Shown here: in pieces, positions 33,274 to 52,218 of the stretch
Numbering within the stretch: position 1 is the first letter of the stretch
Layout: every line of letters begins with the position of its first letter
Assembly (NCBI RefSeq): GCF_005222835.1
Contig: NZ_STGA01000015.1
Span: 1 to 64,000 of the forward strand
Direction of reading: 5' to 3'
DNA from: Rhizobium sp. FKY42
GTDB lineage: Bacteria; Pseudomonadota; Alphaproteobacteria; Rhizobiales; Rhizobiaceae
DNA: 64,000 bases
Position numbers and translations under genes: made by a program
The notes under the pieces: generated by a model
Seen by the model: only the letters and a program-made list of their open reading frames with translations
Told to the model about the DNA's origin: nothing
Databases searched by the model: none

Positions 33274-33566
33274 CACGTGCTCCGGATTGGAATTTTAGAT
33301 GAAATACGGCGTTCCTTTTAATTGTAATTTATTGGAAATATAAATCTATTACGATACCCTAATTTGCATCATGCCCTCATCCATAAGTGGTAGAGCAGAT
33401 TGAAAGGGAGGGGTTAGTTGTCCAGATACTGGCCGTCAGAGACGCTCCCTTAGCCCTTTCGCGTATGACGATCAGTCATCTTACTCCCAAAAATGCGGTT
33501 TCCTGACTTGCTGGAAGGCTCCACAGTCATAGGAGAAGTCTCGTGAGAGAAAGGGAGGTTGGAGGG
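33274..33566. promoter_or_regulatory. AT-rich divergent promoter region
   Basis: A ~290-base gap between the divergently transcribed methyltransferase (-) and RmlC-like (+) genes. It is markedly AT-rich around 33310-33370 compared with its flanks and should contain promoters in both directions; I cannot assign exact -35/-10 boxes. No gene seen within. Confidence 0.5.
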
Positions 33567-34130
33567 ATGCATTTCAGATCTACACCGATCCAGGACCTGT
33601 GGATCATCGAACCAGAACGGGCTTTTGATCGGCGTGGCTCATTTGCCCGGACTTATTGCAAGGAAACTTTTAAAGAGCATGGGCTGCACAGTGAGTTCGT
33701 TCAGCACAGCCTGTCTGTATCTCAGTGTAAGCATACGCTGCGAGGGCTTCATTTTCAGGCGCCGCCTCATCAGGAAATCAAGCTCGTATCCTGCGTCAGG
33801 GGGGAGGTTTGGGATGTAGCGGTGGATTTGCGACCGAACTCTCCAACCTATCTTGTCTGGTTCAGCGCAATGCTATCTGCAGACAGGGGGACGCAATTCT
33901 ACATTCCACAAGGATGCGCCCACGGTTTTCTGTCGCTCTGCGAGGATGCTGCGATCTCGTATCTGATATCAACCCCCTATGTACCGAACAGCTCATCCGG
34001 GCTGCGCTACGACGATCCGGCGATCGGCATTGTCTGGCCGCACGAGCCCGCAGTGATATCTGATCGGGATCTCGAATGGCCGTATTGGCGCGGGCTGTCA
34101 AATTTTTCGGTCGAGGAAGCCGAGATTTGA
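33567..34130 (+). CDS. RmlC-like dTDP-sugar 3,5-epimerase
   Basis: A 187-residue cupin epimerase of the RmlC family. Visible are GSFARTYCKETF, the active-site LRGLHFQAPPHQE with the catalytic His, KLVSCVRGEVWDVAVDLR, and FYIPQGCAHGF. ATG 33567 is preceded by GGAGGTTGGAGGG; an upstream in-frame GTG (33543) is less likely. The nucleotide of the substrate (dTDP or CDP) is not readable; next to rfbF a CDP sugar is possible. Its 3' end overlaps the 3' end of the DUF4910 gene on the other strand by 33 bases. Confidence 0.92.
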   Translation: MHFRSTPIQDLWIIEPERAFDRRGSFARTYCKETFKEHGLHSEFVQHSLSVSQCKHTLRGLHFQAPPHQEIKLVSCVRGEVWDVAVDLRPNSPTYLVWFSAMLSADRGTQFYIPQGCAHGFLSLCEDAAISYLISTPYVPNSSSGLRYDDPAIGIVWPHEPAVISDRDLEWPYWRGLSNFSVEEAEI

Positions 34131-35462
34131 GATCAGTCGCGCGTCCAGCAAATCGGCTGCCGCTGCAGCAATTTGCATGAAGGATAAGTTTGACCTTTCG
34201 GCAATATCGAGCAGGTCGTGGTTGCCGTCTGCAAAATTAAGAACCCAAAGATAGGCCGCTGTCTGAAGGCTTTGATCCTTGTGACCACCGATTGTCGGGA
34301 AGAGACCGTGTCTGCTGAGGTGCGGTTCACCCTTCGGGGAGTTATTCAATGGCGTCCAATTCCCTTCCAAAGCAGACAGCATGTCCACGACCATGCGGAA
34401 CGAAGAGCCCAGATGCTCAGGCCGGATGAAATCGAGATTGTCCGCGGATGTATGATATTCCGGAAACGTTCCGAATGCGCTTCGCTGCAAGAGGCCAACC
34501 GGGAGATCAAAGCCGGGTGAGCAAAACTGTCGCTCGTCGTATCCAAAGGGACTGAAGTCATCGATTGCCAGCGGATGCTGATCCTCGCCACAACGAGTGC
34601 AAGCAGCAATTCGGTCAATGATTGCGGTGTGTCGGCGGCTTCGCTTGTAATGTGCATTACCACCATCGCCTATGCATGAGAGAACGAGTCCATGGGCGAC
34701 ATTTGGCAGGCAATGCTCGTTTGCGGATAGCCAAGCCAAGGAGCCGATCGTTCCAGGCGCAAAAATGAAACGATAGCTGTAATAGGTTCGGATCGACTTC
34801 ATCCATTCCGCAAGACATGTCAGTAGCGCCAGGCCCGAGCAGTTGTCGTTCGCCAAGGATGGATGACAGATATGCGCATAGAGCAGGACTTCCTTGTCAC
34901 CCCATCCCTGATGGCGATATTCACCATAGTGGAGCATGCCTGGTACCTTAGCGGTGTCGATGACCACCTCGTAGTCGCCGTCCTTGAGCGCCAGAAGCTC
35001 GTTATGGCTCATGCAAAAACCCCATGCGTCGGTATAGTAGGCAGTCTTGTACGGGATAAGGTCCGGCTGGGTTGGCAGAGTGTAGATGTGGGCCTTGAGT
35101 TCTGCCAGGGGCATGGTTCGTCGCACAGGGATACTGTAGTTCAACAGGTGAAGATTGGAGGTTTTGAATTCCGCGATCTGCCTGCCAGACGGATCGATGA
35201 TATAGGCGTTCCGTACGATCCATTCCTGCGGAACTATCCAATCAAACAAGCGCGTTCCGCTTGGTACGTCATTCCGAATGATATCGATATGGTCTCTCAG
35301 AACGTCGATCGTATCGCGCACGCCCTGGCCGGTAATGCTGCGGCAGAGGGGATAGATGCGGGATGCCAATGCATGGATTATGTCTCCCATAGCCTGGTAA
35401 GGATGAGGGAAGCTTGTTAAATCGGGCTTAGCGACAGGTACAGTCGTCAGCATCTCAAACAT
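34098..35462 (-). CDS. DUF4910 aminopeptidase-like protein
   Basis: A 454-residue protein of the DUF4910/DUF2172 type, an M28 metallopeptidase-like fold. The metal-ligand motif HICHPSLANDNCSG (~residue 200) is visible, with FDLPVG and SADNLDF further on, and GTIGSLAWL. Such genes are found in sugar biosynthesis and polysaccharide clusters where their role is not settled; hydrolysis of an amide on a modified sugar is one possibility. The start ATG 35462 overlaps the SDR stop by one base (TGATG), so the two are co-translated. Confidence 0.83.
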   Translation of the reverse strand: MFEMLTTVPVAKPDLTSFPHPYQAMGDIIHALASRIYPLCRSITGQGVRDTIDVLRDHIDIIRNDVPSGTRLFDWIVPQEWIVRNAYIIDPSGRQIAEFKTSNLHLLNYSIPVRRTMPLAELKAHIYTLPTQPDLIPYKTAYYTDAWGFCMSHNELLALKDGDYEVVIDTAKVPGMLHYGEYRHQGWGDKEVLLYAHICHPSLANDNCSGLALLTCLAEWMKSIRTYYSYRFIFAPGTIGSLAWLSANEHCLPNVAHGLVLSCIGDGGNAHYKRSRRHTAIIDRIAACTRCGEDQHPLAIDDFSPFGYDERQFCSPGFDLPVGLLQRSAFGTFPEYHTSADNLDFIRPEHLGSSFRMVVDMLSALEGNWTPLNNSPKGEPHLSRHGLFPTIGGHKDQSLQTAAYLWVLNFADGNHDLLDIAERSNLSFMQIAAAAADLLDARLISNLGFLDRKI

Positions 35463-36535
35463 CAAACTTGGATCGGGCGCCTGTCGCCCTTGCTTTCGAG
35501 CCAGAGTACAATTGGGCGGAGATGGTTGTTGATCTCGCCTTCGCGGATCAGTTTCTGTAGTTGGCTGACCCTTTGGTAGCGCGGTCCTTCGAACTCTGCG
35601 ACGGTAAGACCTGTACTGAGATAGGCATTGTAGAGTTGCTCGGCGCCTTTTTCAGCGGTCCAGGTCGGTTTGAACGCCGGAAGCGCTCGACGAATTTTGG
35701 TGAAATCTACTCGATAAGAACGCGTATCCGGCCCAGCCCCTTCTGCATATTGCAGTTGGCAACCGGGAACCGTCCGAGCAACGATCTCGGCAATGTCCTT
35801 GATCCGGTAATTGTGCTCATTTTGTCCCACATTAAAGGCCTGATTGCGTACCACATCTGCTGGCGCTTCGAGCGCTGCAAGAAAAGCACGCGAGATATCT
35901 TCGACGTGGACAATCGGACGCCACGGAGTGCCATCGGATTTCAAAAGGATGAGGCCCTGCGTCGCTGCCCAGGCGGTGAGATTGTTGAGAACGATGTCGA
36001 AGCGCAACATTGGCGACAACCCGTATGCCGTTGCTGGACGCATATAGACCGGGCAAAAGTTTGCATCTGCCAAACCCGCGATTTCCCGTTCGGCAAGGAC
36101 TTTCGAGGTTCCATAGGCTGAAACGGGATTAAGCGCTCCGGTCTCGTCAATCATGCCTTCACCAGCGGCCCCGTAATTGCTGCATGATGATGCAAAGAGG
36201 AAGCGCTGCACACCTGCCTCCTTTGCGGCAGTAGCAACCCTGACGCTGCCGCGATAGTTGATCTCGAAGGTCGTTTCAGGATTGAGATTGCTCAGCGGGT
36301 CGTTCGAGAGCGCGGCGAGGTGGATGACGGCATCAAAGCCTTTGAGATCGGCGCCGGTGATGTCGCGAATATCCTTGCGATTGCCAGGTGTTGTGGGGCG
36401 TTCGCCTCCAGGACTGTAAGCGCAGCGTTCATATAATTCGCAATCATAACCGTGGACATCATGTCCGGCGTTGCGCAGAATCGGGATCATTATCGATCCA
36501 ATGTATCCGCGATGCCCAGTCAGCAGAACCTTCAT
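35462..36535 (-). CDS. NAD-dependent sugar epimerase/dehydratase (SDR)
   Basis: A 357-residue extended SDR. The Rossmann motif reads [32 protein letters not shown] and the catalytic [11 protein letters not shown] (Tyr-xxx-Lys) follow. It resembles NDP-sugar epimerases/4,6-dehydratases in polysaccharide clusters. ATG 36535 follows GAGGGGCG; the frame runs upstream to 36619 without a ribosome site. Reaction and substrate cannot be fixed, but it could serve the CDP-sugar route begun by rfbF. It is followed directly by the DUF4910 gene. Confidence 0.9.
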
Positions 36536-36664
36536 CACACGCCCCTCTATGACAATTGATAAAGATCCTAGCATTCCGGCCATTCGTGCCGCATTGCGCA
36601 AACCGTTGGCAAAGGGCATCCAAAGGATCGGCTTGATTGGCGCGCTACCTCTTTTGGATACTCC

Positions 36665-36822
36665 AGGGTGAGGACCCCATCATATTATTGAAATGGCACG
36701 ATGAACGGCAAGAATATGAGAGGAGAGGCTCGCCGATACTTCGGTATCGCCTCAAGTTTTTCGCCTCGTATCTCATCCGGATCGCTTCACACCATTTCAA
36801 CAAGATGATGGCGTCCTCACCC
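36665..36822. repeat. 158-bp imperfect palindrome (MITE/RIME-like) with UUCG apex
   Basis: The outer ~31 bases (GGGTGAGGAC... on both strands, starting 36666 and reading inward from 36822) match at 28 of 31 positions. The centre is a hairpin, CGATAC TTCG GTATCG, so the whole element folds back on itself. It occupies the gap between the SDR start and the aminotransferase stop and ends 12 bases from the latter, so it could also stop or stabilise transcripts. Size and shape resemble Rhizobium intergenic mosaic elements; family identity not checked. Confidence 0.75.
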
Positions 36823-36833
36823 TAGGCCCGAGC

Positions 36834-38207
36834 TCACAATGTGTTTTCCGCAACAGGGTCGGCGGACGTCTTGAGTTTCAAGCGGTTGAAGCGCCGAAAC
36901 ACAACATTAGATGGCCTCCCCACCAAATATTTTCCGACGCCGTTTTCCAGCGCCTTTTTGTAGATTGCCATTGCAGCATCGATTGCATCGAGCGTCTTTG
37001 CCACGTCCTCTTTTCCATGCGCGTAACTGACGACAAGCGAAGGGGCTATCAGTCCCCGGCGTATCGTTTCTTGGAGGAAGAGGGAGCGAAATGCCTGAGA
37101 GGGCTTTGCTTGATCGTCTAGGGTAAAGTAGCTGAGGCAAGCTGGATGTCCCTGGACGCCAAAATATTTGTCTACGCCGTGCGCGACTGCGATCTGCCCG
37201 ATTGCAGCAGTCAGAACCTTTCCCTGTTCTACAAGGTGGCTGATAACCGGCTCATTCCGATAAACCTTGATCGTGGCAATCGCAGCAGCCAATGCGTGTG
37301 TTTCCGCGCCGTGTGTGGTTGATAACAGGAAAACCCGAGGCTTTGATGTCTGCTCCAACCCTCCGAGCGCCATAAACTCTCTTTTCCCCGCTAGGGCCGA
37401 GACAGAGAAACCATTGCCAAGCGCTTTCCCAAAACAGGATAGATCGGGAACGATACCGTAGGCTTTTTGCGCACCTCCGATATCCCATCGAAAGCCGGTA
37501 ATCATTTCATCAAGAATAAGAAGGGCACCGTTTTGGTGGCATAGATCCTGAAGCTTATGGAGAAAGCCGTCCTTCGGGCCTTCGTTGCGAGCGGGCTCAA
37601 GGATGAAGGCAGCAATTTCTCCGCGATGGCGTGTCAACAGATCTTGTACACTGCTGAGGTCGTTATAGCGAAAACCCAGCGTCAAGTTCTGAATGACTTT
37701 CGGTATGCCCGCATTCATTTCGGTTGTCCCGATGAACCAGTCGTCGGTAGAGAAAAAGGGATGATCTGAACAGCGCGCGATTAGGTCACGTCCTGTTACC
37801 GCCCTGGCAAGCCGGATCGCAGCAGATGTGGCATCAGAGCCGTTCTTGCAGAACTTGACCATGTCGGCAGTCTTGATGATATCCAGGAATGCTGTGGCGC
37901 AGTCCACCTCCAGACCGGATGGTCGTGTGAAGTTGCACCCAAGATCAAGCTGAGCCTTTGCAGCCTTTACGACAGGGGGATAGGCATGTCCCAACCCGAC
38001 AGCTCGATTGCCCATGCCATATTCAATGTATTCATTGCCATCGACATCTCGCACATGGCAACCGGAGCCGCTGGCAATGAACCCGGGCGACAGGATCGGG
38101 TACTGATCGTCTCCCTTAGCATAGGTATGGCAGCCACCAGGTATGATTTGGTGTGCTCGTTGACGCAGCCGGTTGGAGTTTTCGAAATTTTCAATCGGAT
38201 TTCCCAT
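36834..38207 (-). CDS. Class III aminotransferase, glutamate-1-semialdehyde-aminomutase-like
   Basis: A 457-residue fold-type I PLP enzyme resembling GSA aminomutases. Signs: GNEYIEYGMGNRAVGLGHAYP, FCKNGSDATSAAIRLARA, LLILDEMITGFRWD, and the PLP lysine in CFGKALGNGFSVSALAG. In a sugar gene cluster it more likely aminates a keto-sugar or builds an amino-acid-like substituent than makes tetrapyrroles. ATG 38207 is used (a GTG precedes it). The 158-bp palindrome follows its stop directly. Confidence 0.9.
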   Translation of the reverse strand: MGNPIENFENSNRLRQRAHQIIPGGCHTYAKGDDQYPILSPGFIASGSGCHVRDVDGNEYIEYGMGNRAVGLGHAYPPVVKAAKAQLDLGCNFTRPSGLEVDCATAFLDIIKTADMVKFCKNGSDATSAAIRLARAVTGRDLIARCSDHPFFSTDDWFIGTTEMNAGIPKVIQNLTLGFRYNDLSSVQDLLTRHRGEIAAFILEPARNEGPKDGFLHKLQDLCHQNGALLILDEMITGFRWDIGGAQKAYGIVPDLSCFGKALGNGFSVSALAGKREFMALGGLEQTSKPRVFLLSTTHGAETHALAAAIATIKVYRNEPVISHLVEQGKVLTAAIGQIAVAHGVDKYFGVQGHPACLSYFTLDDQAKPSQAFRSLFLQETIRRGLIAPSLVVSYAHGKEDVAKTLDAIDAAMAIYKKALENGVGKYLVGRPSNVVFRRFNRLKLKTSADPVAENTL

Positions 38208-38454
38208 CACGCAGCCCCGCTCAGTTGCCTAAAACTGCAGTGGAGCTGAAGAGGGCAACCCAGCCTAGTCAGCCTTTCGTTTCACGAGATCGACCGAAAG
38301 GGTTAAATGTGGTTCGGCTACGAAAGCGTTCGTCCGGCACAATAATAGTTCGGTGCGTTTTGTCTCGCACACTGTTGTCCGGAAAGGTGTATCCAATTGC
38401 TCCTAGAGAAAGCTTTGAACCTGTCACCGTCTGCGTGTGCGATCAGCAACGGGA

Positions 38455-39225
38455 TCAGTTTGTGCTTTCCCAAGTCCTGTCCTGTTGCTGCAAAAGATCG
38501 GAAATTCTGAAGATGACCTCAGTCCGGTTTCGTGCATTCAGCTTCTTCATGATATTGCGGATATGGACCTTGACGGTGCTTTCACGCAAATCGAGTTCAT
38601 AGGCGATGATTTTGTTAGGCTTGCCCTGTGTCAATGCATCGATAACGTCGGCTTCTCGTTGAGTGAACAAATTTGCCCAGTGACGTTCCTTGCTTTCCGC
38701 AACCCGTAGAAGCTGTCGAAGCTCACTCAGATCTTCTGCCGATATGAACGCTCCCCCTGCCAGGGCGAGGGATATCGCGCCAACACAAACCGAAAGCCCG
38801 GTTGCAGACGAGATGTAACCCTGCACGCCGACTTCGAACGCGCGCAGCGCTTGCCGGATGTCCGGTGTCTCTGCCAGAATAACAACAGGCAAGCTCGGAA
38901 AATCCAAAATCAAGGTTTGCAGGTCGCGCATCAGACTTTCATGCGAGAGTTCACCTCGTCCAACGTATGTCAAAAGGCCTGAATGTGACTGGTCGCAACT
39001 CGTGCGCCAATCGCCGAAGGATGAATAAAGATCCATGTGCATATTCAACCCATGAGCAGTCAGGCTTTGAGCAAGACATTCACGCTCAAGAGCTCGATTA
39101 TCGATAATTGCGAGCTTTTGTAACGGATACTCCTGAGTTACGGCGAGTGTGGTTTGAGATCGTGGTATAGCAGCAAGTTGCTTGTAGCCGGCGGCCGCGC
39201 GATAGGCAAAAGTTTCACTTTGCAT
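38455..39225 (-). CDS. LuxR/NarL-type regulator with degenerate receiver (second copy)
   Basis: A 256-residue paralogue of the regulator at 29755-30441: same N-terminal pattern IDNRALERECLAQSL, an atypical receiver in which the acceptor position after strand 3 reads LLTYVGRG (no Asp), and a GerE HTH with TQREADVIDALTQGKPNKIIA and STVKVHIRNIMKKL. A short Gln-rich tail follows. ATG 39225 follows GGAGAG by six bases. It faces away from the large CheB-CheR-kinase gene across a 494-base gap, a plausible regulatory pair. Confidence 0.9.
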   Translation of the reverse strand: MQSETFAYRAAAGYKQLAAIPRSQTTLAVTQEYPLQKLAIIDNRALERECLAQSLTAHGLNMHMDLYSSFGDWRTSCDQSHSGLLTYVGRGELSHESLMRDLQTLILDFPSLPVVILAETPDIRQALRAFEVGVQGYISSATGLSVCVGAISLALAGGAFISAEDLSELRQLLRVAESKERHWANLFTQREADVIDALTQGKPNKIIAYELDLRESTVKVHIRNIMKKLNARNRTEVIFRISDLLQQQDRTWESTN

Positions 39226-39719
39226 ATGGATCTCTCCAAAAAAGGTTCCCAAGTCGTGAGGGCTTCACTGCTAGGCATCGTCGGATCGGACTTTTGGTCT
39301 TTGAGAATGCCTTCTACTATTAGAGGCTTCACAACGGCGTTTTGGCATCGTGTGATTGCAAAGCTACAGCAGGATAACGTGAACGCGAAAGCATCGGAAA
39401 ATACTCAAGTGAAAGCTAATCAACCTAATGAGATGTCGCCAGACTGCCTGTGATCTGCCATTGCCTTATGTTCACTCTGGATGCACGGCAGTAGGGTTCA
39501 GGCGACCTAATTAATTTACGCGTCAATTTATAAGTTGTTTTGAAATTAGTGATATTCTATTTCGGATTGTTGGCGTCTGCGCATCTAAGTTTGACAGAAG
39601 ACGTCAACTTACTGCTTACGTCTGACCATGCATTCGACCCAAACGGTCATGGCTCGAATCTGCTGCAACGGAAAATGCAATCTGCTGGGCATAGCCCAAC
39701 GTAACGCGCGGATAAGGGT
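39226..39719. promoter_or_regulatory. Divergent promoter region between regulator and hybrid kinase
   Basis: A 494-base gap with an AT-rich core near 39505-39560, between the LuxR-type gene (-) and the hybrid sensor gene (+). Promoters in both directions are expected; I cannot place them exactly. No convincing gene; small frames on both strands lack family features. Confidence 0.45.
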
Positions 39720-42700
39720 ATGTCGGGCTCAAATATCCAAACACATATTGTCGGAATTGGTGCCTCATCAGGAGGCCTCGCCGCGATCAGGGAGCTGCTA
39801 CATGCTCTTCCTTCCAAAACGGGGCTTGCCTTTCTGCTGGTGCAGCATCTGGATCCCGTTCACGAAAGTCTTCTCGTTGAATTGCTTTCGAGTGAAACGC
39901 CTCTGAAGGTCATCCAGGCGTATGATGGCGCAGTCATCGAGCCTGATCATATCTACGTTATTCCACCAGGACTCCTGATGGCTGTTAAGGCAGGTGAAAT
40001 TCGTTTGACCCCCCTGCCAAAACGGCATGGAGTCAGACTCCCTTTTGATTTTCTGCTGACATCGATGGCGCAAGAATACGGGTCGTTGGCTATCTGCGTA
40101 ATCTTGTCGGGCAACGGGGCGGACGGCTCGGTTGCAATCAGCTCTATCGAAGAAGCCGGTGGACTAGTGCTCATTCAGGATCCGAGTGAGGCCGAATTTG
40201 ACGGTATGCCGCGCAATGCAATGTCACATTCAATCGATGCGCAAGTCCTGCCGGTCGCCAAGATTGCCGATGCGATCATGAATCGGCAGCGCAACGCCGC
40301 GTCATTGCCGCCCGATGGGAACTCGGTTGTGAACAAGGCCAATCTTCTCGAAATCATCCAGGTGCTGAAGAACTCCACTCCGAATGATTTTTCCTCGTAT
40401 AAACACGGTACGCTCTTAAGAAGAATAGAAAAAAGAATGGCCGTTCTAAACATAAAAGACGATATCAGACGATATATTGATATTCTCAGAAATGATGACG
40501 AGGAAAGGCAGGCCCTCGCAAACGATATTCTGATCAATTTCACCAAATTCTTTCGCGATGATAATCTGTTCATTCTTCTCCGTGAGAAAATAATTCCTGG
40601 GATGCTGGCCAGCAAAGCAGAGGATGGTTCTCTGAGAGTCTGGGTTGCCGGATGCAGTACGGGAGAGGAAGCCTTCTCACTGGCTATGCTGTTTCTCGAT
40701 TGCATCAAGGCACTCAAATTGAGGATCAAGCTGCAGATATTCGCGTCCGATGCGGACTCTGAGGCAGTGGCCTTCGCAAGGGAGGGACAATATTCGGAAG
40801 CTTCCGCCGCCTCCATGCCACCGGACCTGCTCGAGAGATACTTCATTCGAAACGAGAAAGGATATTACGTTGCACCACAATTGCGTGCCTGCGTCATTTT
40901 TGCGGTTCAGAATATTCTAACAGATCCGCCGTTTTCTAAAATAGACCTCGTATCTTGCCGCAATGTGCTCATCTATCTTAACGCAGAAGCCCAAGCCAAG
41001 GTGCTTGCCCTTTTTGGCTTCGCGTTGCGCGAAAGTGGGATCCTTGTCCTCGGAAAGTCGGAAACGATTGGACGCCTGGACGATCGTTTCAAACTTATTG
41101 GAAAGTCCGAGCGCGTTTACCAGAGAATCTCACATCGTGGATATGGCGATTTCCAGTTCAACATGACATCCAGCGACGCTGTTCACGTTCCCGCAATCGC
41201 AAACAGGAGGATTGTCGCCGCGCGGCAAAATGTCTTCGCCGAGGTCGTTTCTAATGCCTTGCTTGGTCGCTATGTGCCTGCAACGATCCTGATCAATCGT
41301 CGATACGAATACCTCTATTCGATTGGTCCGACAGAGCGCTTCCTGAAAATTGCGGCAGGTCCTGCCTCTCTCGACCTATTCGCCATCACCCCGAAATCAC
41401 TACACAGCAAGCTTCGATCAGCCATTTTTTGTGCGAGCCAAGATCAAAAGAAGGCTGTCGTTAGCGGTTCCACCATCCGGTATGACGAGAAGGATCATCG
41501 GTTCAGTATCCACGTGGAACCACTCCTTCATCAGGGAGAGCAGCTTTTCCTGATTTGCTTTATGGAGGAAGGCCCTGTCTTGGCCAAGCCGGCCCGGCCA
41601 GTGGGCGGACAAATTGACATAAACCGCGTGTCTGAACTTGAACAAGAGCTCGAGGAAACGCGTGCTGAACTGAACAGTTCGATACGCAACCTGGAACTTT
41701 CAAGTGAAGAACAAAAGATTATTACAGCTGAAGCGCTCTCTCTCAGCGAGGAGTATCAGTCCGCAAACGAAGAACTGGTTACCTCCAAGGAGGAGCTTCA
41801 ATCCCTGAACGAGGAATTGACCGCTCTCAACACCCAGCTTCACGAAACGTTGGAACGTCAGAGGGCGATTTCCAAAGATTTGGAAAACGTTCTCTATAGC
41901 ACCGATGTACCAACGCTATTTCTTGATCGTGCGCTGAACATCCGGTTCTTTACACCTGCCACGCGGTTGCTCTTCAATGTCATCCCGTCTGATATCGGTA
42001 GACCATTTTCTGATATCAGCATGCTTATGGATGATCCTGATCTGCAGCCAGATGCGATTGCAGCCCTGAAACTTGGAGGTCTAATCGATAAGGAGATAGC
42101 TGCCCGCGACGGGCGATGGTACATTCGTAGGATAAAGCCATTTCGCACCGGGCAGGGTATGACCGAAGGCGTTGTCATTACCTTTCTTGACATGAGTTCG
42201 CAAAGGCAGCTTTCGGAAGATAGGGAACACGCCAAGCGGTCTGCAGAGCTCGCGACCGCCGCCAAATCCCACTTTCTAGCCGCGGTAAGTCACGATCTTC
42301 GCCAACCTTTGCAAACGCTGAAGCTCCTCCAGGGGTTGCTTGAGAGCAGCGTAGAAAACGATCAGTCCCGACTGCTGGTAAAGCGGATGGAGGATACGCT
42401 TGCTTCAATGTCCGGCCTCCTTGATACAGTGCTAGACATCAACCGAATTGAGGCCGGGATAGTTCAAGTCAAACCAGAAAGCTTCGCAATCACAAGCATT
42501 CTTCAACGTCTCGTGAAAGACATAGCTTATCAGGCCCAGGCCAAAGGGCTGGAGCTGCGCATAGTCCAATCCAGTCTGGCGGTAGCCACCGATCCGCGAT
42601 TGTTGGAACAGATCGTTCGCAACCTTCTTTCAAATGCGGTCAAGTATACGCGTACAGGCAAGATTCTCGTTGGATGTAGACCTCGTGGCAGAAAGGTGCG

Positions 42701-44006
42701 GCTCGAGATTTGGGACACTGGCATTGGTATTCCTAAAAAGGAGCTAGAGAGCGTTTTTGAGGATTATCATCGGCTAGAGCCACGGTCGGGCATGGCTTCA
42801 CAGGGGGTAGGATTGGGGCTGTCGATCGTGAAGCGCCTCAGCGACCTCCTTGACCTCAATGTTCAAGTACGCTCTCAATTGGAAAGGGGCTCTGTATTTT
42901 CGATTGACATCGAGCGTGCCGACGACAGCGAAGTGTTGGTAAGTATCCCTCCAAGCGTGCGCCAGCACGTGCGTGAAGAAAGCGTGGCGCCTGCATCAAT
43001 ACTGGTCATTGAAGACGAAGATGCGATGCGCGATCTCCTTAAAATAGGCCTCGAAAAGGGGGGCCATATCGTCACCGTGACAAGAGATGCTGATGAAGCG
43101 GTAAAAACGGTTCGGTATATGGGCCATAGGCCGGATCTCATTTTGGCAGACTATAATCTGCCGTACGGGTCGGATGGGCTTGAAGCTATTGCAGAAATTC
43201 GTAGCATCCTCGGGCGGAAGATACCCGCACTGATCCTGACAGGCGATATATCAAGCCGCGCTCTGAAAAACTATGCGAAACAGCAGATCCCGCACATCAC
43301 CAAACCTACTAAGTTGCCAGAGCTTGTTGCCGCTATCCATCATCTACTATCTCACGCACAGGAAACCAATTTGACCAAAGCCCCCTCCGCTGCTGAAGCA
43401 GCTTCAAGGAGATGTGTTGAGATTATCGACGATGATCAGGGCGTGAGGGAAAATGTGGAGGCAATTTTTACCGGTATCGGCTTTTTCGTTGTCAGTTACA
43501 CATCTGCCGAAGACTATCTCGCACGGCATTCTCTTCAGCAGGCTACCTGCATCCTTATCGATGCCTACCTGCCAGGAATGGACGGCCTGCAACTGTTGAA
43601 ACTGCTCAAGGAGCGCGGATGCCGGTCCCCCATTATCGTCATCACCGGCCATAGCGATGTCTCGATGGCAGTGGAAGCCATGAAGCATGGTGCCATTGAC
43701 TTCATTGAAAAGCCGTTCTCGGCTGAGGAAATCCAGGCAAGCGTACAAACGGCGTTTGAATTGCTGGAAAGCAACGACCAACATACAACCCGCAGAGAAG
43801 CTGCGAGGACGAAACTCGCCCAACTGACGCAACGGCAAAGTCAGATCTTGGCACGGATTGTTGCCGGCGAGCCGAACAAGATCATCGCCGCTGAAATGAA
43901 GCTCAGCCAGCGCACCATCGAGAACCACCGAGCGTCTATTATGCGTCGTACGGGGTCCACTTCGCTATCCATGCTGCTTCGTCTTGTCGCGACAGCTGAA
44001 ATTTAG
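39720..44006 (+). CDS. CheB-CheR-PAS-histidine kinase-REC-REC-LuxR fusion protein
   Basis: A 1428-residue cytosolic multidomain protein. Order: CheB methylesterase (1-195) with S16, H43 and D135 as the catalytic set; CheR methyltransferase (~205-480) with SAM motif VAGCSTGEEAFS and RNVLIYL; PAS-like (~497-618); coiled coil (~635-723, rich in EELxSLNEEL); PAS (~720-832); HisKA with H858 (AVSHDLRQPLQ); ATPase with NLLSNAVKYT, DTGIGIP and GVGLGLSIV; REC1 (acceptor D1144); REC2, FixJ-like (acceptor D1281, PGMDG); and a LuxR HTH (~1366-1427). No membrane helix. It could sense, relay phosphate and bind DNA in one chain. No weak points or frameshifts seen. Confidence 0.93.
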   Translation: MSGSNIQTHIVGIGASSGGLAAIRELLHALPSKTGLAFLLVQHLDPVHESLLVELLSSETPLKVIQAYDGAVIEPDHIYVIPPGLLMAVKAGEIRLTPLPKRHGVRLPFDFLLTSMAQEYGSLAICVILSGNGADGSVAISSIEEAGGLVLIQDPSEAEFDGMPRNAMSHSIDAQVLPVAKIADAIMNRQRNAASLPPDGNSVVNKANLLEIIQVLKNSTPNDFSSYKHGTLLRRIEKRMAVLNIKDDIRRYIDILRNDDEERQALANDILINFTKFFRDDNLFILLREKIIPGMLASKAEDGSLRVWVAGCSTGEEAFSLAMLFLDCIKALKLRIKLQIFASDADSEAVAFAREGQYSEASAASMPPDLLERYFIRNEKGYYVAPQLRACVIFAVQNILTDPPFSKIDLVSCRNVLIYLNAEAQAKVLALFGFALRESGILVLGKSETIGRLDDRFKLIGKSERVYQRISHRGYGDFQFNMTSSDAVHVPAIANRRIVAARQNVFAEVVSNALLGRYVPATILINRRYEYLYSIGPTERFLKIAAGPASLDLFAITPKSLHSKLRSAIFCASQDQKKAVVSGSTIRYDEKDHRFSIHVEPLLHQGEQLFLICFMEEGPVLAKPARPVGGQIDINRVSELEQELEETRAELNSSIRNLELSSEEQKIITAEALSLSEEYQSANEELVTSKEELQSLNEELTALNTQLHETLERQRAISKDLENVLYSTDVPTLFLDRALNIRFFTPATRLLFNVIPSDIGRPFSDISMLMDDPDLQPDAIAALKLGGLIDKEIAARDGRWYIRRIKPFRTGQGMTEGVVITFLDMSSQRQLSEDREHAKRSAELATAAKSHFLAAVSHDLRQPLQTLKLLQGLLESSVENDQSRLLVKRMEDTLASMSGLLDTVLDINRIEAGIVQVKPESFAITSILQRLVKDIAYQAQAKGLELRIVQSSLAVATDPRLLEQIVRNLLSNAVKYTRTGKILVGCRPRGRKVRLEIWDTGIGIPKKELESVFEDYHRLEPRSGMASQGVGLGLSIVKRLSDLLDLNVQVRSQLERGSVFSIDIERADDSEVLVSIPPSVRQHVREESVAPASILVIEDEDAMRDLLKIGLEKGGHIVTVTRDADEAVKTVRYMGHRPDLILADYNLPYGSDGLEAIAEIRSILGRKIPALILTGDISSRALKNYAKQQIPHITKPTKLPELVAAIHHLLSHAQETNLTKAPSAAEAASRRCVEIIDDDQGVRENVEAIFTGIGFFVVSYTSAEDYLARHSLQQATCILIDAYLPGMDGLQLLKLLKERGCRSPIIVITGHSDVSMAVEAMKHGAIDFIEKPFSAEEIQASVQTAFELLESNDQHTTRREAARTKLAQLTQRQSQILARIVAGEPNKIIAAEMKLSQRTIENHRASIMRRTGSTSLSMLLRLVATAEI

Positions 44007-44134: not shown

Positions 44135-45100
44135 TCAGAAAAGGCTGGTGAAGAATGTGTGGATCCTTTTCAGAGTGTCCGGTCGAGCCGCCAGATAGCT
44201 CAAGGGCGGGATCACCGCGTTCATGGGATGAAGGTTAAAGGAAAGTTTGAAGAGCTCGATTGCCTCTCGGTCGCAGCGCACAAGATGGGAGAATGCGGAC
44301 CAGTAGGCCCGATCGGCAATGCCGCGCCGCGCAAGCTGTCGCAGGGCGTAGCTGTCCGCCATGGTCCCACCTTCATTGTCGAAGAAGCTTGAGGCGGCGG
44401 CAGCTGTATGCAGGATATGCTGTATCTGGTGTGACCAAAGCTCTGTCGACCGGTTCTCACCATGCGAGCGGATTCCTGCTTGAATGCAGTCAAGCTCTCC
44501 TATCTTTCCATGCATTGACAGCCTTAGCCACACTTCATAGTCGTCGCTATGGACGAGTTCGCTACGATAGTGACCAACGCGCTTTTGCACTGCTGTCCTA
44601 ACGACTATTGAGGGTCCGGGTACTTGAAATACACCAAGGCGGCAAAACCGCTTTATGAAATCGGTACCCTCATGAATGCGTATCGAGGGAGGATCCGTTT
44701 GATTTGGGACAGGCGGAATTGGCCCATCACCGGTCAAGGCTACGTCCCTACCATAGGTAAAGGCAATTGATAGATCAGCTTCCATGACATCGGTCGCTCG
44801 CTTCAAGGCGCCCGGCACGAGAAAATCGTCCGCAAACAGCAACAGGAAGTAATCAGCTTGAGCCCAGTCAATACCTTGATTGAAAGATGCATGCGGCCCG
44901 CGGTTTACCGGGTGGAGTGAGATCTCGACGCGGGAATCCCGAGCCAACGATTTGGCAATGTCTAGGCTGTCATCAGTCGAGGCGTTATCGATAATCAGGA
45001 CCCTGATCGTGACATGTTCCTGCTCAAGAATACTCTCGACGCAGGCCCGCAGATATCTCCCGTAATTGTAGTTCGGAACCACAACATCGATGCTCGCCAT
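44135..45100 (-). CDS. GT2 family glycosyltransferase
   Basis: A 321-residue GT-A fold enzyme. The N-terminus SIDVVVPNYNYGRYLRACVESIL, then LIIDNASTDDS, and the DxD-like FADDF are GT2 markers. ATG 45100 is chosen (GGAG ten bases upstream); the frame extends to 45145 inside the upstream flippase gene. It sits last in a minus-strand set with the Wzx and pyruvyl transferase genes and adds a sugar to the repeat unit; the donor is unknown. No membrane segment. Confidence 0.9.
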   Translation of the reverse strand: MASIDVVVPNYNYGRYLRACVESILEQEHVTIRVLIIDNASTDDSLDIAKSLARDSRVEISLHPVNRGPHASFNQGIDWAQADYFLLLFADDFLVPGALKRATDVMEADLSIAFTYGRDVALTGDGPIPPVPNQTDPPSIRIHEGTDFIKRFCRLGVFQVPGPSIVVRTAVQKRVGHYRSELVHSDDYEVWLRLSMHGKIGELDCIQAGIRSHGENRSTELWSHQIQHILHTAAAASSFFDNEGGTMADSYALRQLARRGIADRAYWSAFSHLVRCDREAIELFKLSFNLHPMNAVIPPLSYLAARPDTLKRIHTFFTSLF

Positions 45101-45104
45101 TGGG

Positions 45105-46580
45105 CTACACTCCGCGACTGGTAAGGCACCGGCAGACTTTCGCATAGGAATGGAGGAGATGCCCTGCTATCAGTTGGACCTCGCCCAGAAATGGGTGTCT
45201 TATGATCACTATACCCGCCAGCCAGCCACATGCTGCACATAGGAGCGTAAGGCCAAACTGGATCATTTCCATGCTGTCGTTGGTAGCCAGCACGATCAGA
45301 GGCCCTGTCAGCGCAAGGAAGGTAACAGTCAAACTTGGATAAATCGCCGATAGAAATTCCGCCGTTGTGAAGCCCAAATGCCGCTTGGCAAAATAGATTG
45401 CGATCAATATCTGGATTGGCAGAGAAACGAACTGGCTGAGTGCCATGGCCAGGACGCCATGGGTGCTGGCACCACAAAGCGTGATCGCAGCCACGCTGCG
45501 GCAAAAAAGACTTGATAAAAACGCATCTCGATTTTGGCCCAGCGCAAGTAAAAGCGGATTGGTAACAATAGCCACGAACCAGAAGGCAGCTGCAACCGCC
45601 ATCAGCCGTACCAGAAGGATTGCTTCGTGCCATTGAGGTCCCAATACGAGATTGACGATCGGCTCGGCAGTGACCGCGACCAAGAGCGCACCGGGCATGT
45701 ACAGCACCGAAAGATAGCTTAGGGTGCGGATGTAGGCTTGCTTGATATTTTTGCCCTCGCGTGCACTGTTCGCAAGCACGGGAAATGCCATGGCATAGAA
45801 CGCCGACATGACCACACGATCGGGAATGCCACATATCGTATTGGCCCTGTTGTATAAGCCGACGGAGGCCATAGAGATGACCTTGCCCAGGATCAATTGC
45901 GGGACGTTCTCAAATATCCGGTCGACTGCCTGTGATGCACCCTTGAATCGACCGAACCTGTATACCGCAGGCCAAGAGACCAAGCTTAGCCTGTATGTGC
46001 AGGACAGTGGGAAAGGAGCAATGAGGACGGCGAGAAGGGCAAGTGTAACAGAGCCCGCAAGCATGGCCCAAGCATAACTTAGATAGCCGAGGCCGAGCAT
46101 TCCAAGGCTGACCGTGGTCAATGCAGATACGACCAGGGAAGCGGTTCGAATATTGGCAAGAACACCGAACGTCATATTGCGCCTGAGGATTGTGATGATC
46201 GGCTGCGAGATCACTTCAGCAAAAGCCGACATCATGACCAAGAACAGAAAAGGCGAGAGCTCGGGGGCTCCGTAGAAGGTTGCGATTGCCGGAGATAGAA
46301 GCAAAACTGCCGAAGTGATTAAAGCAGTGATCAGCAACAGCACAGTGAAAGCGGTACAAAGATCGCCATGATTGACCTCGGCTTTCTGGATGAGGAATTC
46401 CGATGTCACGAATTCCCTCAGTGAGAGCAAGATTGCTCCTATGCCGAGCCCCGCAACTGCGTGCCCAACGGCGTCCGGCGTCAATAGTCTCGCCATCGTT
46501 GCAACAACAGATACGTTTATGACGAGCGACACATATTGTTCGATCGATGACATCACGAATGCGCGGCGTGGTGTGGTCAT
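45105..46580 (-). CDS. Wzx-like polysaccharide flippase
   Basis: A 491-residue integral inner-membrane protein of the MOP superfamily (Wzx/PST-like) with about 12-14 helices. The N-terminus MTTPRRAFVMSSIEQYVSLV and the stretch LTPDAVGHAVAGLGIG, plus LGKVISMASVGLYNRANTI, are typical. It would turn the undecaprenyl-linked repeat unit to the periplasm. It lies downstream of the pyruvyl transferase gene and ends four bases before the GT2 start codon. Confidence 0.92.
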   Translation of the reverse strand: MTTPRRAFVMSSIEQYVSLVINVSVVATMARLLTPDAVGHAVAGLGIGAILLSLREFVTSEFLIQKAEVNHGDLCTAFTVLLLITALITSAVLLLSPAIATFYGAPELSPFLFLVMMSAFAEVISQPIITILRRNMTFGVLANIRTASLVVSALTTVSLGMLGLGYLSYAWAMLAGSVTLALLAVLIAPFPLSCTYRLSLVSWPAVYRFGRFKGASQAVDRIFENVPQLILGKVISMASVGLYNRANTICGIPDRVVMSAFYAMAFPVLANSAREGKNIKQAYIRTLSYLSVLYMPGALLVAVTAEPIVNLVLGPQWHEAILLVRLMAVAAAFWFVAIVTNPLLLALGQNRDAFLSSLFCRSVAAITLCGASTHGVLAMALSQFVSLPIQILIAIYFAKRHLGFTTAEFLSAIYPSLTVTFLALTGPLIVLATNDSMEMIQFGLTLLCAACGWLAGIVIIRHPFLGEVQLIAGHLLHSYAKVCRCLTSRGV

Positions 46581-46672
46581 GTCGTGTTCTCAATCCAATA
46601 GATCGAATATGGGAGCCACCCTCCGGATGGACCTCGTTTGACGCCGTTTACGCTTCGATGTTCTCCAGTTTT

Positions 46673-47875
46673 CTATCCCTTGGTAAGCAATCGCTCACTG
46701 AGAAGTAATTGCTGTTCCAGGAGTTGCATTTGCCAGCGCTTGTTCACCTGTCCAATGCGTTTTTGAATGACGATACGACTATCGATAAGCTCATCGAACA
46801 CGCGTTTAAGTTCATCAAGTTCGAAGGTCTCGATCTGAAAGCAGTATCTCTGCTGGTCGAACTCTTCCATCAGATCATCGTTCTTTCTCGCATAACCAAT
46901 TGAAATAGTTGGTCTATTCAATTTCAATGAACTCACCAGATTATGGTAGCGCGAGACAACTGCCAGATCGACCGTGCTGAGCTGAGACATAACAGTGTGG
47001 AGGGAACCAATCGTGCCCATTTCCATCCGGCTAACGCTCTCATCGCTGACCGCAGACACGACCCGCTTCATAACATCCTGCAATGCAGCCTGATCCGCGA
47101 TATCTCCGGTGACGAGGGTAATGTGCAATCCCTTGGCCAAGAGCCAAATGACGAAGGTGGAAATTTTACCGACGTAGTCTTCATAAATATCCTCTGATCG
47201 AGGCTCGTTGACGCGCCATCCGCGGTAATGCATCACCCCAACCGCAACCGATAACCGGTCTGATACAGTCGGTTTGATTGAAGGCTTTGGAGTCGGAAGC
47301 GTGAAGGCTATATCCGGGTAACGGCGATCTGTTGATACATCGACACCAAGCGTTCGCATGAATTCAAGCGAATAGTCATCGCGATAGGATCGATACGAAG
47401 CCATGAGAGCGGCGGAGCGAAGGAACCAGCGGCTCAGCGTGCCATTGATTGGACCAGCGCCAATGCTGACAAAGGCAATTTTGGTTCGGCAGAGCTTGGC
47501 GGTAACGCACCAGCAAAACAAGACAAAGGGCCAACCAAAGGCCTTCTCCTGAAAGTCATCGAGTATGCCGGTGCCTGGAATAATCATGAGATCGAAGCCG
47601 TTTAGTTGTGCCATAGATAGAAAGAATAAAGACAGTCGGCCCGGCAGCCGAAGCATCAACTTGTCAAGGTTTCTGGCCCAGCGGGAGGAGTTCGGCGAGC
47701 CTCCAATACCCACGGCCTTGATGTTGTAAAGTTTTGCGATCAGATCCGGATTGGAGCAAATGCAGACTAACTCTGCATCAGGTCGACATCTGCGCAAATA
47801 TATCAACATTGCCTCGAGTGATCCGTCGTTGCCGGAATTGCCAGAGCCGAACTGTCCGAGCAGACTTATTTTCAT
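46673..47875 (-). CDS. Polysaccharide pyruvyl transferase family protein
   Basis: A 400-residue CsaB/WcaK-type protein that transfers pyruvate as a ketal to sugars. The start MKISLLGQFGSGNSGNDGSLEAM is characteristic, with IPGTGILDDF and SRYHNLVSSLKLNRP later (the last is the nucleotide-site HNL.. motif). ATG 47875 is chosen by family start; the frame extends to 47920. Divergent from the GT4 gene at 48115. It predicts an acidic, pyruvylated polymer. Confidence 0.88.
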   Translation of the reverse strand: MKISLLGQFGSGNSGNDGSLEAMLIYLRRCRPDAELVCICSNPDLIAKLYNIKAVGIGGSPNSSRWARNLDKLMLRLPGRLSLFFLSMAQLNGFDLMIIPGTGILDDFQEKAFGWPFVLFCWCVTAKLCRTKIAFVSIGAGPINGTLSRWFLRSAALMASYRSYRDDYSLEFMRTLGVDVSTDRRYPDIAFTLPTPKPSIKPTVSDRLSVAVGVMHYRGWRVNEPRSEDIYEDYVGKISTFVIWLLAKGLHITLVTGDIADQAALQDVMKRVVSAVSDESVSRMEMGTIGSLHTVMSQLSTVDLAVVSRYHNLVSSLKLNRPTISIGYARKNDDLMEEFDQQRYCFQIETFELDELKRVFDELIDSRIVIQKRIGQVNKRWQMQLLEQQLLLSERLLTKG

Positions 47876-48114
47876 CGGATATCCTGACCGTGAGCCGCGC
47901 CGACCGCGCTCCTCACTCATATCAAACGCGCATCACACGACCATCGCGCCTTATGGCGCTTTTGTTACCTCGTCCGGCAGCAAATCAGCCCTGGCATCCA
48001 CCGAAGGATGCATGCCGCCACCCATGTTTGCAGCTATCCTGGGGTTCTTCAGCTTTTAGTATTCAGTGCAATCGTTCGTGCGCGCCGCGATCACTCCGGA
48101 AGAGGTTTTGACCG

Positions 48115-49314
48115 ATGAAACTTGCCTATTTCGTTCTTCCGCATGTCGGCGGCACCTTTTCCGTCTTCAAAAGCCTCCGCGCCGGACTTGCGCCCTATGG
48201 TCATGAGGTTCGATGGTTCGGTGCATGTGAAGAAGGATACGAAATACCGGTGACGATGCAGGATGAGGTACCGACTGGCGATCTGCTGACGTTACCCGTG
48301 GGGCTGGGCGAGAGAGCTTGCGCCGTTAGAATGGTGGATGCAATCAGGACACACAATTTCGACGGCGTCATCATCAATGTTCTCGGCGACCGGCTACAGA
48401 CCAATATTGCGCGATATTTGCCCGAACATATCCTTCGCATCATGGTCGTTCACAACATAACGCCTGGAACTTATGCCGCAGCAAGGTCGATACGGGACTA
48501 TACGCATACGACAATCGGAGTGTCGGAGCGCTGTCGAATGGATCTTGTCGAACGATACGGCTTTCCTGCAGGAAACACGCATGTCATCGAGAATGCGGTG
48601 GATACGGAGGCGTTCAAGGAGCGCGTCCCGGACCGGGAAAAGAACCCATCCGAATTGCGCGTCTTGTATGTGGGAAGAATTGAGGATGCGTCAAAAGGCG
48701 TCCTGTGGCTTAGGGAAATTCTCGATGCGTTGCCAACAAAAATCAAGTTGACCATCGTTGGCAATGGTCCCGACATGGCCAAGCTTAAACGGCGGCTGTC
48801 GGGATACTGGAAGCAGGTAGACTATCTTGGTGCGGTCTCGCCATTGCAGATTCCGACCATCATGGCCAATCATGACGTGCTCATCATGCCGTCGCGCTAT
48901 GAAGGTTTGCCCATGACCCTGATCGAAGCGATGGCGGCAGGATGCGTCCCAGTCGTTTCCCGTATCAGAGGCGTTACCGATACAGTAGTCGACCATGAAA
49001 CGACAGGCTTTCTATTCCCGGTAGGCAACTACACGGCTGCGGCCTCCGCGATCGCCATGCTTGACGGCAACAGGGATATGCTGGACCGCATATCGCTCTG
49101 CGCTCGAAGGATTGTTCCTGAACGTTTCGGTATCGAGACCATGGCCAGGCGATATCACGAGATAATAAGTACGGCTGCAGCAGAAAGAGGGGGCGTGACG
49201 CCACCGCTTGACATAGACAGTTGGACCATACCTGCGGGGCTGCGTCCCGGTTTGCGAACCTATGTGCCGCTACCGCTCAAGAACTGGCTTCGCGTTGTCC
49301 GCGAAAGACTTTAA
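48115..49314 (+). CDS. GT4 family glycosyltransferase
   Basis: A 399-residue GT-B enzyme. The donor domain shows LYVGRIEDASKGVLWL, VGNGPDMAKL and PSRYEGLPMTLIEAMAAGCVPV with the EX7E pattern. AGAGGTTTTGACC precedes the ATG. The 239-base gap to the divergent pyruvyl transferase start holds the likely promoters. It is followed after three bases by the DUF4038 gene, so the two are one transcript. Confidence 0.93.
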   Translation: MKLAYFVLPHVGGTFSVFKSLRAGLAPYGHEVRWFGACEEGYEIPVTMQDEVPTGDLLTLPVGLGERACAVRMVDAIRTHNFDGVIINVLGDRLQTNIARYLPEHILRIMVVHNITPGTYAAARSIRDYTHTTIGVSERCRMDLVERYGFPAGNTHVIENAVDTEAFKERVPDREKNPSELRVLYVGRIEDASKGVLWLREILDALPTKIKLTIVGNGPDMAKLKRRLSGYWKQVDYLGAVSPLQIPTIMANHDVLIMPSRYEGLPMTLIEAMAAGCVPVVSRIRGVTDTVVDHETTGFLFPVGNYTAAASAIAMLDGNRDMLDRISLCARRIVPERFGIETMARRYHEIISTAAAERGGVTPPLDIDSWTIPAGLRPGLRTYVPLPLKNWLRVVRERL

Positions 49315-49317
49315 CCG

Positions 49318-50706
49318 ATGCCGATTGTATCGATCGGATCCTACCAGCATCCGAGGCTTCTTCTGATGAGATGCCACTGCGGCATTGTCTGTTTGGCCTC
49401 TATCGTGTGGCTGCTGTCGATCTTTCCATCCATGGCTCAGGATGCCGTTTTCCCATTGTCCATGCCACCTCAGGGCAGCTATCTCCAAGATAGCCGGGGC
49501 CACCCGTTCCTGCTCATAGGAGACAGCGCATGGTCGATGATCGCCGACCTGTCTCTTGAAGATGCCGAGCATTACCTCGACACGCGAAAGCGTCAGGGTT
49601 TCAATACTATCCTTGTCTCGCTCCTCGAACACAAATTCGCAAGGAATGCGCCCGCCAACCACTATGGAGAGGTTCCGTTCAATGGCATGGCTTTCGCCCA
49701 GCCAAACGATGCTTACTTCGATCGTGCTGCACGTTTCATCGAAGCGGCTGCACGTCAAGACATGTTGGTCCTTCTCTGCCCCGCATATCTGGGGGCCAAT
49801 GGAGGGTCAGAAGGTTGGTACGAGGAGATGGTTGCTGCGGGAACCGACAGGCTCAGTGCCTATGGACAATATGTCGGGGCGCGTCTCGGAAAATTCCCAA
49901 ACCTGATCTGGGTACAGGGCGGAGATTACGATCCTCCGGACAGGACCCTCGTGAATGCGGTGGCCAAGGGTATCGCAAGTGTCGCTCCGGGTGCCGTTCA
50001 AACCGTTCATGCCAATAGGGATACGACCACCCATGCGTACTGGCAGGCGGCAAGCTGGCTGGATATCGATACCGTCTATACCTATGGCGATGCGGCAGGC
50101 TCCACGATTGCACGATACCGGGCCGGACCGCACCGGCCGTTTTTCCTCATCGAGGCTAAGTATGAGGGAGAAAATGGCGCAGATGAAAGCGATATACGGC
50201 TTGCAGCTTATGGTGCGCTTCTCTCAGGTGCGGGCGGCCAGATATTTGGAAACAATCCCGTATGGCATTTCTCCGGCAAGGGCATTTTCCATTCGTCCGT
50301 AACTTGGAAGCAAGCTCTTTACAGCGAGGGAGCGCGCAGCATCAGCATCCTTGCCGGCCTATTCAAACAGCTTGAATGGTGGAAGCTGCAGCCAGATCAG
50401 GGGGTCTTGGTGAAAGCCACAACGGGAGCAAAAGGCGCGATTTTTGCCGCACGCGATATAGATGGAAGGTTTGCCGTTATTTATGCCCGCGGCATCGACA
50501 GAGTTACGCTTGATCTCAGTTTACTCCCGGATGGAACAAAACGATTACTGTGGATCGATCCCTCCAACGGTTCTTCCCTATCTGAATTTGAACACCTTGA
50601 TGGATCCTCAACTCCGACAGTAGGCACCCCCCATCAGTCAAACGGTTCCGGCTTTCACGATTGGATCGGCATATTCACAAATGCTGAGGCGTCTGGCTTC
50701 GAATAG
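49318..50706 (+). CDS. Secreted DUF4038 glycoside hydrolase
   Basis: A 462-residue protein with a signal peptide starting at an internal Met (49366: IVCLASIVWLLSIFPSMAQ, cleavage after Ala-Gln region), preceded by 16 residues of uncertain use. A (beta/alpha)8 DUF4038 domain (GDSAWSMIADLSLEDAEHYL, NLIWVQGGDYDP, FLIEAKYEGE) is followed by a beta-rich putative collagen-binding-like domain. The domain is known from apiosidase-like and related glycosidases. In this cluster it probably trims or releases the polymer in the periplasm. Confidence 0.85.
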   Translation: MPIVSIGSYQHPRLLLMRCHCGIVCLASIVWLLSIFPSMAQDAVFPLSMPPQGSYLQDSRGHPFLLIGDSAWSMIADLSLEDAEHYLDTRKRQGFNTILVSLLEHKFARNAPANHYGEVPFNGMAFAQPNDAYFDRAARFIEAAARQDMLVLLCPAYLGANGGSEGWYEEMVAAGTDRLSAYGQYVGARLGKFPNLIWVQGGDYDPPDRTLVNAVAKGIASVAPGAVQTVHANRDTTTHAYWQAASWLDIDTVYTYGDAAGSTIARYRAGPHRPFFLIEAKYEGENGADESDIRLAAYGALLSGAGGQIFGNNPVWHFSGKGIFHSSVTWKQALYSEGARSISILAGLFKQLEWWKLQPDQGVLVKATTGAKGAIFAARDIDGRFAVIYARGIDRVTLDLSLLPDGTKRLLWIDPSNGSSLSEFEHLDGSSTPTVGTPHQSNGSGFHDWIGIFTNAEASGFE

Positions 50707-52214: not shown

Positions 52215-52218
52215 GGCG

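Follow-up and report, generated by a model that had tools for sequence, protein, structure and literature searches.

Does a single open reading frame (ORF) beside the polysaccharide genes of Rhizobium sp. FKY42 encode a complete regulatory switch, and if so, what does it switch? The gene lies at 39720-44006 of the window, the whole 64,000-nucleotide stretch analysed here, and was described in a first-pass annotation as an unusual CheB-CheR-kinase-REC-REC-LuxR chain that might be a dedicated polysaccharide switch. Judged from its sequence, the hybrid is a real single protein which probably senses a signal, passes phosphate internally and binds DNA. We lean towards an autoregulated FixJ-type switch on one chain, which would control a divergent LuxR-type neighbour (here named LuxRB) and reach the sugar genes only indirectly. 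The features on which this depends are as follows.

39720..44006, + strand: hybrid CheB-CheR-PAS-HisKA-HATPase-REC-REC-GerE gene, 1428 amino acids (ORF and Pfam)
39750..40277, + strand: CheB methylesterase domain, residues 11-186, with the triad S16/H43/D135 (Pfam)
40350..41108, + strand: CheR_N (211-259) and the CheR S-adenosylmethionine (SAM)-binding domain (273-463) (Pfam)
41145..42218, + strand: linker, residues 476-833, with a mixed alpha/beta domain, a helix at about 634-727 and PAS_10 at 721-825 (Pfam, AlphaFold2)
42261..42914, + strand: HisKA (848-913) and HATPase_c (958-1065) kinase core, with H858 (Pfam)
43002..43343, + strand: first receiver, about residues 1095-1208, with D1144 (Pfam)
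43419..43982, + strand: FixJ-like output, with the second receiver (1234-1342, D1281; best Response_reg stretch) and the GerE helix-turn-helix (HTH, 1368-1421) (Pfam)
39390..39407, + strand: conserved 18-bp FixJ-type box AGnnTCGGAAAnTACYYA, a predicted operator in the divergent intergenic region (alignment and motif scoring)
38455..39252, - strand: LuxRB, a divergent LuxR-type gene with a degenerate receiver and a NarL-like HTH (Pfam)

The hybrid ORF begins with ATG and contains no internal stop. Pfam places CheB_methylest, CheR_N, CheR, PAS_10, HisKA, HATPase_c, two Response_reg stretches and GerE along it in that order. Because a single chain combines CheB, CheR, a HisKA-HATPase kinase core and REC, it belongs to the CheB/CheR-fusion hybrid histidine kinases, and both the CheB triad and the CheR SAM motif (GCSTGEE at residue 311) are intact, as are the catalytic residues of the two enzymes in most aligned rows. 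The triad, the SAM motif, H858, D1144 and D1281 were all found in the one frame as first stated, together with the LuxR HTH, and the reported lack of a membrane helix is borne out by a best 19-residue Kyte-Doolittle mean of 1.55. An AlphaFold2 model of the linker (residues 476-833, nine sequences; mean pLDDT 78.5, pTM 0.36) shows two mixed alpha/beta domains flanking a helix of about 94 residues, the second domain covering PAS_10. The order of the strands suggests that both domains may be PAS-like sensors, with the long helix between them serving in signalling.

The model that we infer, which extends to the signal, the phosphate route, the binding, the sign of regulation and LuxR control of exopolysaccharide (EPS) genes, starts with a cytosolic signal. 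The region of PAS and long helix would sense this signal, perhaps with the attached CheB and CheR as tuners, and the signal would set autophosphorylation at H858. The phosphate would pass to D1281 of the second receiver, D1144 of the first serving as a modulator or sink. The FixJ-like HTH would bind the box between the hybrid gene and LuxRB, and the bound hybrid would control the promoter of its own gene and, where that gene lies in a polysaccharide locus, the LuxRB promoter as well. LuxRB in turn would control the sugar genes.

The box was found by aligning the 16 LuxRB-hybrid intergenic regions of EPS-linked loci, which share one short conserved element. It was scored as TCGGAAANTAC, at 10/11 or better, within 500 bp upstream of the gene or, for EPS-linked loci, over the whole intergenic region. 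All 16 EPS-linked loci, which are the discovery set, carry it, always on one strand. Rows were called non-EPS when the fetched stretch had no match to marker genes of the window locus, a definition under which unlike sugar loci could escape notice in unannotated rows. Among 27 such loci the box is on the same strand in 16 and on the other strand in two; three rows scored later (L202 8/11, L204 11/11, L206 8/11) bring the same-strand count to 17/30, the last of the 31 non-EPS rows, L203, being left out for want of a CheB match. In held-out class loci the box is on the expected strand in 9/14 and on the other in 0/14; two of these loci (L242 and L255) come from one genome, the frame of L241 has an internal stop, and L254, a partial match with a box score of 10, lies outside the 14. 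A score of this kind would arise by chance in about 1.4% of cases per strand per locus under uniform bases, although relatives are not independent. The flanks outside the scored positions are also conserved beyond the EPS-linked set, with A at -4 in 27/27 and A at +13 in 25/27.

In these sequences the box travels with the FixJ-like output. Upstream of CheB/CheR kinases that have no match to a FixJ-like HTH in the same gene it was found in only 1/26 (1/7 and 0/19), a control set in which L039 and L040 have an HTH match in a different gene. L163 and L164 carry the full FixJ-like output (same-strand score 9/11) and were not counted as controls, and L161 (no upstream sequence) and L162 (215 bp upstream) were not counted in the scoring at all. 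The possibility that the box is a site for LuxRB itself was rejected, since it precedes LuxRB in 0/9 of the EPS loci that lack the hybrid. The genome from which the window comes has one perfect box. In L256 and L257 a variant, TCGGATTnTACYYA, lies about 237 bp upstream, and the protein has an extra PAS-like stretch.

The reverse complement of the box, TRRGTAnTTTCCGA, fits a FixJ class obtained by systematic evolution of ligands by exponential enrichment (SELEX), GTAGTTTCCC, and the fixK site, TAAGTAATTTCCCTTA, both as quoted in an excerpt of PMC4999443. The C-terminal 200 residues of the hybrid align over their full length with FixJ, which is also the best solved relative (5xso), and the NCBIfam FixJ scores are 224.1 and 204 bits, the latter for the output half, both below the cut-off of 255. 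The FixJ-type recognition helix R-T-[IV]-E-x-[HY]-R-A is present, and in the form SQRTxExHRAxIM is all but invariant across the 47 sequences of the tree described below; LuxRB carries a NarL-like helix instead. Since this C-terminal part aligns with FixJ and its helix is nearly invariant while that of LuxRB is NarL-like, the hybrid should itself read the box.

The surroundings of the gene are given by two further features.

26272..38210, - strand (rfbC, 33543-34130, on the + strand): left arm of the polysaccharide locus, genes named by synteny with annotated relatives
44135..58510, both strands: right arm of the polysaccharide locus, genes named by synteny, with 'Wzy-like' a label assigned here

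The left arm has genes for export, a Wzc-like protein, LuxRA, PIG-L, a cytidylyltransferase, a methyltransferase, DUF4910, an SDR, a GSAM-type aminotransferase and rfbC; the right arm has glycosyltransferases, a flippase, a pyruvyl transferase, MraY-like and Wzy-like genes and an acetyltransferase. Marker searches place the hybrid or a shortened version in one conserved slot of this locus in 11 loci, the window included, with the same left-hand genes throughout and different right-hand genes in L121, L081 and L087. In L129 the hybrid lies elsewhere within the same kind of locus, and in four genomes of the genus it stands beside a second kind (DegT, epimerase, flippase, Poly_export and Wzy_C, as identified by Pfam for L057 among them), which completes the 16 EPS-linked loci. 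LuxRB is the divergent neighbour of the hybrid in 16/16 of them, compared with 1/31 others, the single case being a LuxRB match of 33% in L193, which has a glycosyltransferase-2 gene nearby. The label 'degenerate-receiver LuxR' for this neighbour holds because it has a GerE match and no Response_reg match in Pfam. A second LuxR-type gene inside the locus, at 29755-30459, likewise has GerE and no receiver match, and a reverse transcriptase (RVT_1), probably of group II intron origin, lies at 60150-61133 near the right end of the window.

A direct hold of the box on the sugar genes was rejected. It was absent upstream of SAMMT, rfbC and GSAM (0/12 each), PIGL (0/10), pyrT, GT4a, GT2, flip and MraY (0/8 each), GT4d (0/5), wzy (0/4) and wzc (0/1). 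Exceptions are SDR (3/12) and GT4b (1/4), and the match for SDR in the window, at 36924-36937, falls inside the upstream aminotransferase gene; the 7/12 boxes scored for LuxRA are cases of the LuxRB gene picked up by the LuxRA query. Any effect on sugar synthesis would therefore go through LuxRB or another factor. The idea of a dedicated polysaccharide switch is thus kept in part, as a link within one clade with a divergent LuxR gene in every EPS-linked locus, and given up as far as direct control of EPS promoters is concerned. Two other motifs recur with at most one mismatch in 8/12 loci, TAAGCCTTTCG upstream of 38210 (aminotransferase) and TCATCCAWAAG between 33276 and 33543 (methyltransferase-rfbC); they are possible sites for LuxRB or another regulator.

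Several observations weigh against an autoregulated switch of this design. The box is not enriched in the genome, with 22 matches at up to one mismatch compared with 32 for the control, and 17 of the 22 lie inside a predicted ORF, so that a wide regulon in this genome was rejected. A strong same-strand box is missing in 11/27 non-EPS and 5/14 held-out loci, and where present it is 128-581 bp from the start of the CheB match, a long way off if it were a simple activator site. Elsewhere in the genome, C52 encodes a FixJ-like protein that could in principle bind the box. In L118 (9153-11768), which occupies the same slot, the kinase is degenerate, the N-box Asn being replaced by Ala and the last G-box glycines changed, and therefore one version may work without autophosphorylation. 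L118 keeps its phospho-acceptors and HTH despite the degenerate ATP site and is a possible pseudokinase switch.

Of the other explanations, the one which survives best makes the hybrid a general stress or redox sensor, whose place in a polysaccharide locus is incidental: it would have travelled with plasmid-borne stress islands and, in a single clade, ended up by chance in a conserved EPS block. For the 31 non-EPS rows, annotation was read for 11, ten neighbours of L190 and L193 were classified by Pfam, and the rest were covered by marker searches. In ten of the 11 annotated rows, genes of stress type (Dps, CsbD, AI-2E, slipin, universal stress protein, P-type ATPase, PRC-barrel, ferritin-like or DUF1003) lie no more than about 8 kb away, the eleventh having mainly transposases. 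A similar cluster adjoins the polysaccharide locus of the window at 84-21351, with acetate kinase, phosphoketolase, a cation P-type ATPase, a CBS protein, an AI-2E transporter and a beta-CASP hydrolase, gene kinds that resemble those flanking the hybrid in the annotated non-EPS records. Moreover, the EPS aminotransferase marker occurs in 29/297 family genomes, and only six of the 29 have the hybrid in the fetched stretch, so that in the family the majority of these loci lack it; these stretches were at most about 20 kb (shorter for L133, L143 and L144), and a more distant hybrid could be missed. Within the genus of the window, however, the hybrid is present in 5/6 genomes with the aminotransferase, and LuxRB has been kept in 16/16 across two different EPS loci.

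The tree also bears on this point. It was built from 47 core sequences (residues 700-1428), 16 EPS-linked and 31 non-EPS; L172, which shares its place with L190, and L080, almost a copy of L079, were left out, L191 and L025 were taken to be one species locus with L085, as was L122 with L081, and L026, L161, L162, L163, L164 and duplicates of the L165 type are also outside it. A branch with support 96/88 separates all 31 non-EPS rows from the 16 EPS-linked ones, which thus group together, in a tree that is unrooted, with bootstrap values that had not settled and L118 as a long branch. This fits one capture of the hybrid into EPS loci. The polysaccharide link within one clade is supported by synteny and tree together, and the incidental stress sensor appears rather unlikely, if the strongest of the competitors.

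Less probable still is a switch in which chemoreceptors or the long helix are the targets of CheB and CheR, making true methylation-based adaptation central. The intact catalytic residues noted above would suit it. CheR, however, is missing in 5/16 EPS-linked rows (L118, L085, L117, L192 and L087) and in 2/31 others, which include the partial frame L203. The difference gives a Fisher p=0.036, uncorrected for relatedness, and the seven rows scored as CheR-lost require seven changes on the tree. Among the five, CheB is absent in L117 and L192, unrecognisable in L118, and keeps its triad in L085; in L087 it retains Ser and has lost His and Asp. All except L118 have full-length sisters in the tree. 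Meanwhile H858, D1281, K1331, R1398, T1399, E1401, H1403, R1404 and M1408 are invariant in 47/47 cores, and D1144 is kept in 46/47. Because CheR, alone or together with CheB, has been lost repeatedly while the kinase His and the second-receiver Asp are invariant, we take the kinase, second receiver and HTH to be the probable core and CheB/CheR a removable tuner; methyl chemistry looks dispensable. The first suggestion that one molecule could unite sensing, methyl chemistry, phosphorelay and transcription therefore holds for the sensing, phosphotransfer and DNA-binding parts, and not for methyl chemistry as an essential one.

It is similarly improbable that the box is read by a FixJ-like protein encoded elsewhere, with the hybrid as target rather than autoregulator. 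No protein in the genome exceeds the NCBIfam FixJ cut-off, the hybrid being the best match and the C52 response regulator, at 186 bits, the second best. That protein is the candidate which this explanation needs, but its helix, SEITVKIHR, differs from the RT[IV]E of FixJ and the hybrid, and the box tracks the FixJ-like output. Finally, an assembly or sequencing artefact fusing two genes, the error that the first-pass annotation had itself allowed for, is practically refuted and an assembly join very unlikely, because a 97% identical protein of 1428 amino acids with the same domain families is known from another source, full-length relatives at 68-70% identity (1431-1433 amino acids) also carry those families, marker searches recover the same domain order in the DNA of relatives, and relatives of equal length occur in many independent records.

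Those relatives also remove the claim that the architecture is unusual, which was dropped: the same domain sets occur in relatives, plasmid records and order and class genomes, and the architecture is an ordinary one, common in Alphaproteobacteria. Among 8000 scored candidates, 4386 match the hybrid at E<=1e-100. All of the 120 matches listed carry GerE and all except P0058 carry CheB, by reading of the table, and identity is 49-70% for most of them, the nearest being 97%. Of 27 matching plasmid records, 20 cover 80% or more of the query in one place, and identity in the plasmid records is 40-58%; the carriers are mostly Alphaproteobacteria, with two records from Caballeronia (Betaproteobacteria). 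Occurrence in whole genomes is patchy, at 7/297 for the family and 19/397 for the order (both E<=1e-200) and 15/385 for the class (E<=1e-250), counts which include the genome of the window each time as well as partial matches. In the genus, 18/57 genomes match at E<=1e-100 and, again from the table, 11/57 have the FixJ-like output half, the gene being split over two contigs in one of the 11, G711. The genome studied here has one full copy; in L026 (Rhodoblastus acidophilus) one hybrid-type gene is followed, at a distance of about 11 kb, by another that runs off the end of the locus. The other ground foreseen for setting the claim aside was an architecture both common and already characterised. 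Common it is, and the literature searches made surfaced no functional study of CheB/CheR-kinase fusions with a FixJ-like output. In the excerpts of the sources concerned, the input domains of Azospirillum histidine kinases include CheB and methyltransferase domains (PMC4618731), and the R. centenum CheB-CheR hybrid RC1_3878 is mentioned without a function (PMC2890560).

More generally, we offer tentatively the picture of widespread one-chain FixJ-type switches that act on their own promoters through a dedicated FixJ-like operator, and which may have been captured once by Rhizobiaceae polysaccharide loci, where they would drive a LuxR partner and repeatedly shed the methylation module. If so, the loss of CheB/CheR is a natural experiment which marks the module as a tuner that a transcriptional phosphorelay can shed. 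What is new here is the predicted FixJ-type operator, along with the repeated apparent loss of CheB/CheR. Fusions of this kind are numerous, and the predicted operator, together with natural variants in which the gene at this slot has no CheR, or neither of the two methylation domains, makes the DNA target and the role of the methylation module directly testable.

Among known systems, the hybrid is closest to the kinases annotated as 'Two-component system CheB/CheR fusion protein' in Neorhizobium alkalisoli, Agrobacterium, Methylocystis and Methyloferula, which have the same domain families and a FixJ-like output. Outside the EPS clade these have LuxRB beside them in one of 31 rows, and a receiver-sized response regulator close by in 5/11 annotated records. 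In the Pseudomonas putida cfc cluster, a sensor kinase gene lies beside CheB/CheR genes and is needed for colony morphology linked to cyclic di-GMP; these are separate genes, and the excerpt of PMC4951495 does not describe a one-chain fusion. The likeness to FixLJ is in the REC-LuxR half, which aligns end to end with FixJ, and in the box, which resembles FixJ sites. The hybrid differs from FixLJ in uniting kinase and regulator in a single chain, which also has a further receiver and begins with CheB/CheR; no FixL-type haem PAS is shown in it, and its FixJ score lies below the NCBIfam cut-off. Its HisKA-HATPase-REC core resembles NahK/ErcS-type hybrid kinases (NF041832, 341.8 bits, under the cut-off of 400), from which it is distinguished by the DNA-binding output on its own chain. 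Canonical chemotaxis CheB has an N-terminal receiver before the esterase domain, which in the hybrid begins at residue 11. For LuxRB the comparison is with CsgD/VpsT-type regulators, which combine a LuxR HTH with a receiver-like part and are encoded next to matrix genes; its match to VpsT (3kln) is weak and confined to the HTH. The hybrid two-component systems of Bacteroides, like the protein described here, join a sensor kinase to a DNA-binding output within a single polypeptide, but they are membrane proteins with an AraC-type output.

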